Positions 30,323 through 31,423 of a DNA stretch of 64,000 nucleotides are shown here, in pieces. How positions within the stretch are numbered: position 1 is the stretch's first letter; the number at the start of each line of letters is the position of its first letter. The translations under genes were made by a program, and so were the position numbers. The notes beneath the pieces are model-generated. The model worked only from the letters and a program-made list of their open reading frames with translations, ran no database searches and was not told where the DNA came from. Where the stretch lies: positions 248,001-312,000 of the forward strand of contig KV419394.1 of assembly GCA_001630475.1 (NCBI GenBank), written 5' to 3'. The stretch comes from Sistotremastrum niveocremeum HHB9708 (taxonomy: Eukaryota; Basidiomycota; Agaricomycetes; Sistotremastrales; Sistotremastraceae).

Positions 30323-31423
<1,101 letters not shown>

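Follow-up and report, generated by a model that had tools for sequence, protein, structure and literature searches.

The Rab11 locus

The window (the whole 64,000-nt stretch of DNA that was analysed) carries on its minus strand a predicted gene of eight exons, the third of which consists of the five bases TAACT (Table 1). With TAACT included, the joined coding sequence keeps its frame throughout and measures 639 nt with the stop, corresponding to a product of 212 residues. The micro-exon stands in the context CTGCAG-TAACT-GTGCGT, between introns of 55 and 56 nt in phases 2 and 1; its coordinates, these flanks, the intron lengths and phases and the 639-nt total had been given in the first-pass annotation and all proved correct. 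Read as T-AAC-T, the exon supplies the third base of the Ser codon, the whole Asn codon and the first base of the Leu codon in GKSNLL. It has the sequence features of an internal micro-exon (at most 15 nt): AG stands before it, GT follows, both flanking introns are of normal size and its inclusion restores the frame.

The best solved-structure match to the product is human Rab11A (E 3.1e-99, residues 5-203), and the alignment to the human protein is ungapped across the P-loop. Matches of the same product to Ypt1 (E 7.3e-60) and Rab2A (E 4.3e-58) are far weaker. The top Pfam family is Ras (PF00071). The protein is thus closer to Rab11 than to other Rabs, and both the P-loop GDSGVGKS (GDSGVGKSNLLSRF) and the C-terminal cysteines (..GGGCC) are intact.

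The assembly that contains the window comprises 34.7 Mb in 111 contigs. When it was searched with the Rab11 protein, four of the 22 matches listed showed 87 to 98% identity, and all four fall at this locus; the remaining 18 were either short with at most 67% identity or had at most 62% identity. No second Rab11 locus was found among the matches listed, so that an intact product should arise here. The proposal that the Rab11 reading frame needs a 5-nt exon was borne out, since TAACT restores the frame at what is the sole Rab11 locus among the matches listed.

A gene transcribed divergently from Rab11 apparently shares its upstream region (window position ~31789 onward, plus strand). Translation of this neighbour by eye gave a 52-residue piece that is similar to endonuclease III-like protein 1 (PDB, E 4.5e-7) and matches Pfam HhH-GPD with E 1.8e-5, just under the family cut-off.

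Table 1. Parts of the Rab11 gene (window positions) and short exons predicted in other small-GTPase loci of the same genome
Feature	Position	Strand	Description
Rab11 exon 1	31388..31423	(-)	36 nt, ATG start
Rab11 intron 1	31338..31387	(-)	50 nt, phase 0, GTAGCG..CGTAG; weak donor (6th percentile of 106 introns)
Rab11 exon 2	31303..31337	(-)	35 nt; 3' end is AG of the Ser codon
Rab11 intron 2	31248..31302	(-)	55 nt, phase 2; donor GTACGT, acceptor CTGCAG
Rab11 micro-exon 3	31243..31247	(-)	5 nt, TAACT
Rab11 intron 3	31187..31242	(-)	56 nt, phase 1; donor GTGCGT, acceptor CTCTAG
Rab11 exon 4	31064..31186	(-)	123 nt; TG-CTT TCA.., giving LSRFTRNEF..
Rab11 intron 4	30932..31063	(-)	132 nt, phase 1
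Rab11 exon 5	30898..30931	(-)	34 nt
Rab11 intron 5	30837..30897	(-)	61 nt, phase 2
Rab11 exon 6	30643..30836	(-)	194 nt
Rab11 intron 6	30584..30642	(-)	59 nt, phase 1
Rab11 exon 7	30503..30583	(-)	81 nt
Rab11 intron 7	30454..30502	(-)	49 nt, phase 1
Rab11 exon 8	30323..30453	(-)	131 nt including stop; C-terminal ..GGGCC
2-nt predicted exon AG	L012:1477-1478; G000 C14 near 144,900	reverse complement	Ras-like; support 14
2-nt predicted exon AG	L017:1314-1315; G000 C36 near 21,700	reverse complement	Ras-like; support 14.5
Likely 7-nt exon CATCCAA	L016:1447-1453	reverse complement	Rho-like; support 8.5, least of the five kept
Likely 7-nt exon CTCCATG	L030:1420-1426		Rab-like; support 14.5
13-nt predicted exon	L031		Rab1-like; support 28

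Splice paths between exons 2 and 4

We enumerated every way of joining exon 2 to exon 4 through one or two introns of at least 30 nt with GT-AG or GC-AG ends that stays in frame and free of stops. There are 212 such paths, 40 of them with GT donors only. GVGKS is kept in 16 paths (TAACT, one that adds four residues and 14 without LLSRF), and TAACT alone of the 212 gives GKSNLLSRF. Scored against the human stretch, the TAACT path reaches 258. The runner-up, which uses a GC donor and whose 17-nt exon adds four residues, scores 242, the best single-intron path, in which the Ser is replaced, scores 236, and the best rival restricted to GT donors scores 230.

In-frame paths other than TAACT therefore exist, and by one of them the gene could dispense with a 5-base exon and encode a Rab11 with an altered P-loop; a single GC-donor intron would yield GKRYVDLLSRF and the 17-nt exon would yield GKSNCALHMLSRF. 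However, the best of these rivals falls 16 below TAACT and the best GT-only one 28 below, and the 15 other paths that keep GVGKS either add four residues (1) or lack LLSRF (14). We regard this alternative as extremely improbable.

The path was also sought with our own spliced protein-to-DNA aligner, which charges a cost per intron, has no exon-length rule and uses ad hoc scores; the human queries were entered by hand. TAACT was chosen with each of RAB11A, RAB1A, RAB5A and HRAS as the query. Forbidding the TAACT acceptor lowered the score by 28 (RAB11A), 19 (RAB1A) and 20.5 (HRAS) for the three queries tried.

To assess chance, the dinucleotides of the 116-nt stretch were shuffled 20,000 times, with the outer six bases on each side fixed. 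Some in-frame stop-free exon of 2-12 nt was present in 5,103 shuffles, a 5-nt exon with a looser, self-defined P-loop in 419, and KSNLL in 29. A tiny exon that merely fits the frame is common by chance and the exact residues are not; the evidence for TAACT thus rests on the exact residues and not on restoration of the frame. The first of these counts would suit a broken gene copy or an assembly error that the eye had repaired by chance with a 5-nt exon. Such a locus is hard to reconcile with KSNLL in just 29 of 20,000 shuffles, with a full 212-residue frame built from eight in-frame exons and ending in the GGGCC tail, or with the lack of any further Rab11 locus among the matches listed, and we give the idea almost no credence.

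Consequences of skipping

According to the first-pass annotation the micro-exon completes the P-loop serine, and skipping it would lose this Mg-binding residue. The first T of TAACT does complete the codon, but the T of exon 4 would serve equally. Because exon 4 starts with T, the Ser codon survives skipping (the join AAG AG-T GCT TTC keeps AGT), and the predicted loss of the serine did not hold. The frame is lost, with a stop after 13 further residues. What depends on TAACT is therefore the frame, together with Asn-Leu; the Ser itself does not.

Intron 2 also contains a competing AG (CCTAG, window 31258-31262, minus strand), 10 nt upstream of the acceptor and six bases past CTAAC, which counts against the micro-exon. 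Its use would yield GKSILQ followed by a stop, and translation would be expected to end early after either TAACT skipping or use of this AG. A spliceosomal twin intron was considered for the 116 nt and ruled out, as removal of all of them breaks the frame.

Two routes to an early stop are what one might expect if TAACT were a real exon whose inclusion is regulated, with Rab11 tunable by unproductive splicing, and a micro-exon switch is reported for Trichoderma virens Xlr2 (PMC11121469). Both donors flanking the TAACT region are, however, average or better. Moreover, skipping would lead to a stop for most exons of a length not divisible by three, so that an early stop is no evidence of a switch. 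Regulated inclusion appears very unlikely to us.

Splice signals and proposed order of intron removal

The reference set consisted of 106 introns of 40-100 nt, each with an exon of at least 18 nt on either side, drawn from 25 small-GTPase loci in this genome (n=116 without the length filter). Their median length is 54 nt (5-95% range 48-72). Against this set the donor of Rab11 intron 2 lies at the 93rd percentile and its acceptor at the 48th; a CTAAC motif starts 21 nt from the intron end. The donor and acceptor of intron 3 lie at the 51st and 24th percentiles. A CTRAY motif is absent from intron 3, as from 68 of the 106 introns, and TTGAC lies 42 nt from its end; the T at -1 of its donor is found in 10 of the 106. 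The missing motif and this T count against the micro-exon, but all four splice sites fall within the range of the genome. The lowest-ranking donors in the gene belong to introns 1 and 5 (6th and 9th percentile), not to the introns beside TAACT. Lengths of 55 and 56 nt fit the 116 unfiltered introns, 9 of which equal or exceed the 116 nt that a fused intron would have. Introns 2 and 3 are both typical, and this speaks for two intron-definition events, one for each.

Taken with the path and residue data, these signals make it very probable that TAACT is a genuine, constitutive 5-nt exon of Rab11 between two ordinary short introns that are excised successively. Splicing at these sites, constant inclusion of the exon and the order of intron removal are what we infer from the genomic sequence. 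Five bases lie far below the size range generally assumed for exon definition. We suggest that introns 2 and 3 are each recognised across themselves (intron definition). A complex at the intron 2 acceptor and U1 on the intron 3 donor would probably collide over five bases, and for this reason the introns would be removed one after the other.

Pairing of splice sites across the intron in filamentous ascomycetes is described in the excerpted work on twin introns (PMC5639578) and is applied here by extension. Arabidopsis splices a 1-nt exon accurately, for which intron definition with recursive removal was the mechanism favoured by the authors (PMC4674806). Contrary to a stepwise model, exon definition is argued for in the study of the human MPC1 exon of 4 bp, which also points to inhibition of nearby recursive splicing by exon junction complexes (PMC9929638); that case, however, has a different setting of mammalian introns. 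Neuronal micro-exons of worms need PRP-40 of the U1 particle, and the need decreases with shorter flanking introns (PMC8378409, excerpt). This result would fit 55-nt introns that manage without special help.

Relation to known micro-exons

Tiny exons down to 1 nt are already known in fungi and plants, and TAACT adds one more case. Among the closest published examples is the 1-nt exon reported for Fusarium CYP621A with transcript reads. It is, like TAACT, an ultra-short fungal exon in a conserved motif, is essential for the frame and was found by joining phases; it differs in being a single nucleotide in an ascomycete P450 gene documented by reads and by 20 orthologues in the abstract (24 genes in the discussion), whereas TAACT has 5 nt, lies in Rab11 and is seen in the sequence of one genome (PMC12940212). 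The same source cites exons of 2-5 bp from Arabidopsis, Drosophila and human (PMC12940212).

Among basidiomycetes, micro-exons occur in close to a third of the Phanerochaete chrysosporium P450 genes. The excerpted account describes frequent introns of 45-55 bp and exons down to 6 bp, the shortest it reports, in a basidiomycete like ours but in the P450 family and not in a GTPase (PMC1184071). The 1-nt exon of Arabidopsis APC11 is likewise ultra-short and constitutive, as TAACT is predicted to be, but belongs to a plant and was tested in cells (PMC4674806, in part). The 4-bp exon of human MPC1 is also constitutive, as we propose for TAACT, and like TAACT has a length not divisible by three. According to a section heading, its splicing persists until the length is cut to zero; it differs in that exon definition is argued, with a core that begins 67 bp upstream and ends at the 5' splice site (PMC9929638).

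The spliceosomal twin introns of ascomycetes share the two-step excision by intron definition that we propose here, but they leave nothing in the mRNA, whereas the Rab11 pair must retain five bases; the excerpts of that work also describe two 3-nt exons in lipS genes of a Dactylellina species (PMC5639578). The passages retrieved from two further papers mention micro-exons merely as a read-aligner setting (PMC3990503, PMC4014442). No prior report of this Rab11 exon was found among the open-licence papers listed.

TAACT would provide a clean case, far below the usual size for exon definition, and it falls in the catalytic loop of a GTPase central to trafficking. The gene illustrates how a gene finder may misread a fungal locus. 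The exon could also serve as a natural substrate for studying how the spliceosome handles five bases, or two in the Ras-like paralogues described below.

Predicted short exons and intron positions in other small-GTPase genes

The implied rarity of so small an exon found no support: smaller ones are published in fungi and plants, and others are predicted in this same genome. We fetched and aligned 32 further small-GTPase loci, 25 of which align well (score of at least 270), and counted only exons internal to each alignment. The 32 loci yielded 12 internal exons of at most 15 nt, five of which have a support of at least 8 units (Table 1). The other seven, including a 1-nt case in L035, had a support of at most 5.5 and were dropped.

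In L012 and L017 the predicted 2-nt exon falls in the same codon (FV-E), directly before YDPxIED, which we take to be switch I. It is flanked by introns of 52/52 nt (L012) and 55/53 nt (L017), and skipping it breaks the frame in both genes. For the exons that were searched, identity between the two proteins is ~50% (49% and 51%). Comparison of the downstream introns gave a score of -31 against a shuffle mean of -35 (300 shuffles), no better than the shuffles; the upstream introns scored 2 against a shuffle mean of -30 (300 shuffles). An AG-NN-GT that gives Asp or Glu arose in range by chance in 591 and 335 of 20,000 shuffles. The position of the second intron beside the 2-nt exon (+42 after GK) is common to the Rho-type loci L018 and L019. 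A 2-nt exon common to L012 and L017 would be a more surprising claim than the Rab11 exon.

A control of 17 ubiquitin-conjugating-enzyme (E2) loci gave four internal exons of at most 15 nt, one of them supported (12 nt). No supported internal exon of at most 7 nt was present in these 17 loci; a 6-nt case had a support of 2.5. Such very short exons are therefore not found everywhere in this genome, and the Rab11 micro-exon appears, from the predicted gene structures, to have company among its small GTPases. One could go further and suppose that the fungus keeps a set of 2-7 nt exons in those regions of its small GTPases that bind nucleotide or form switch I, that the 2-nt exon was kept in the Ras-like paralogues despite one intron having diverged to chance level, and that these exons act as checkpoints of splice fidelity. 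We consider this very unlikely. If it were true, a slip in these GTPases would lead to a stop and not to a shortened, possibly dominant-active protein.

Introns 2 and 3 of Rab11 interrupt the gene 2 and 7 nt downstream of the GK codons. An intron at +2 or +7 was seen in 0 of the 25 well-aligned GTPase loci, so that no paralogue supports or contradicts the Rab11 split; 11 of the 25 have an intron at position 0. An origin by sliding of this common position-0 intron is only a guess.

The search for relatives was extended to two contig collections. The viral collection gave seven pattern matches and no relative. The scan of the genome collection gave 32 pattern matches with one Rab11 relative, a Rab11-like gene (L041:720-1476) that has GT-AG introns of 46-60 nt and is not from a recognised fungus. 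Its P-loop is uninterrupted, which counts against the micro-exon. Its contig, PBDU01000015.1, is filed under a Euryarchaeota MAG, and the gene probably represents eukaryotic contamination of that MAG.
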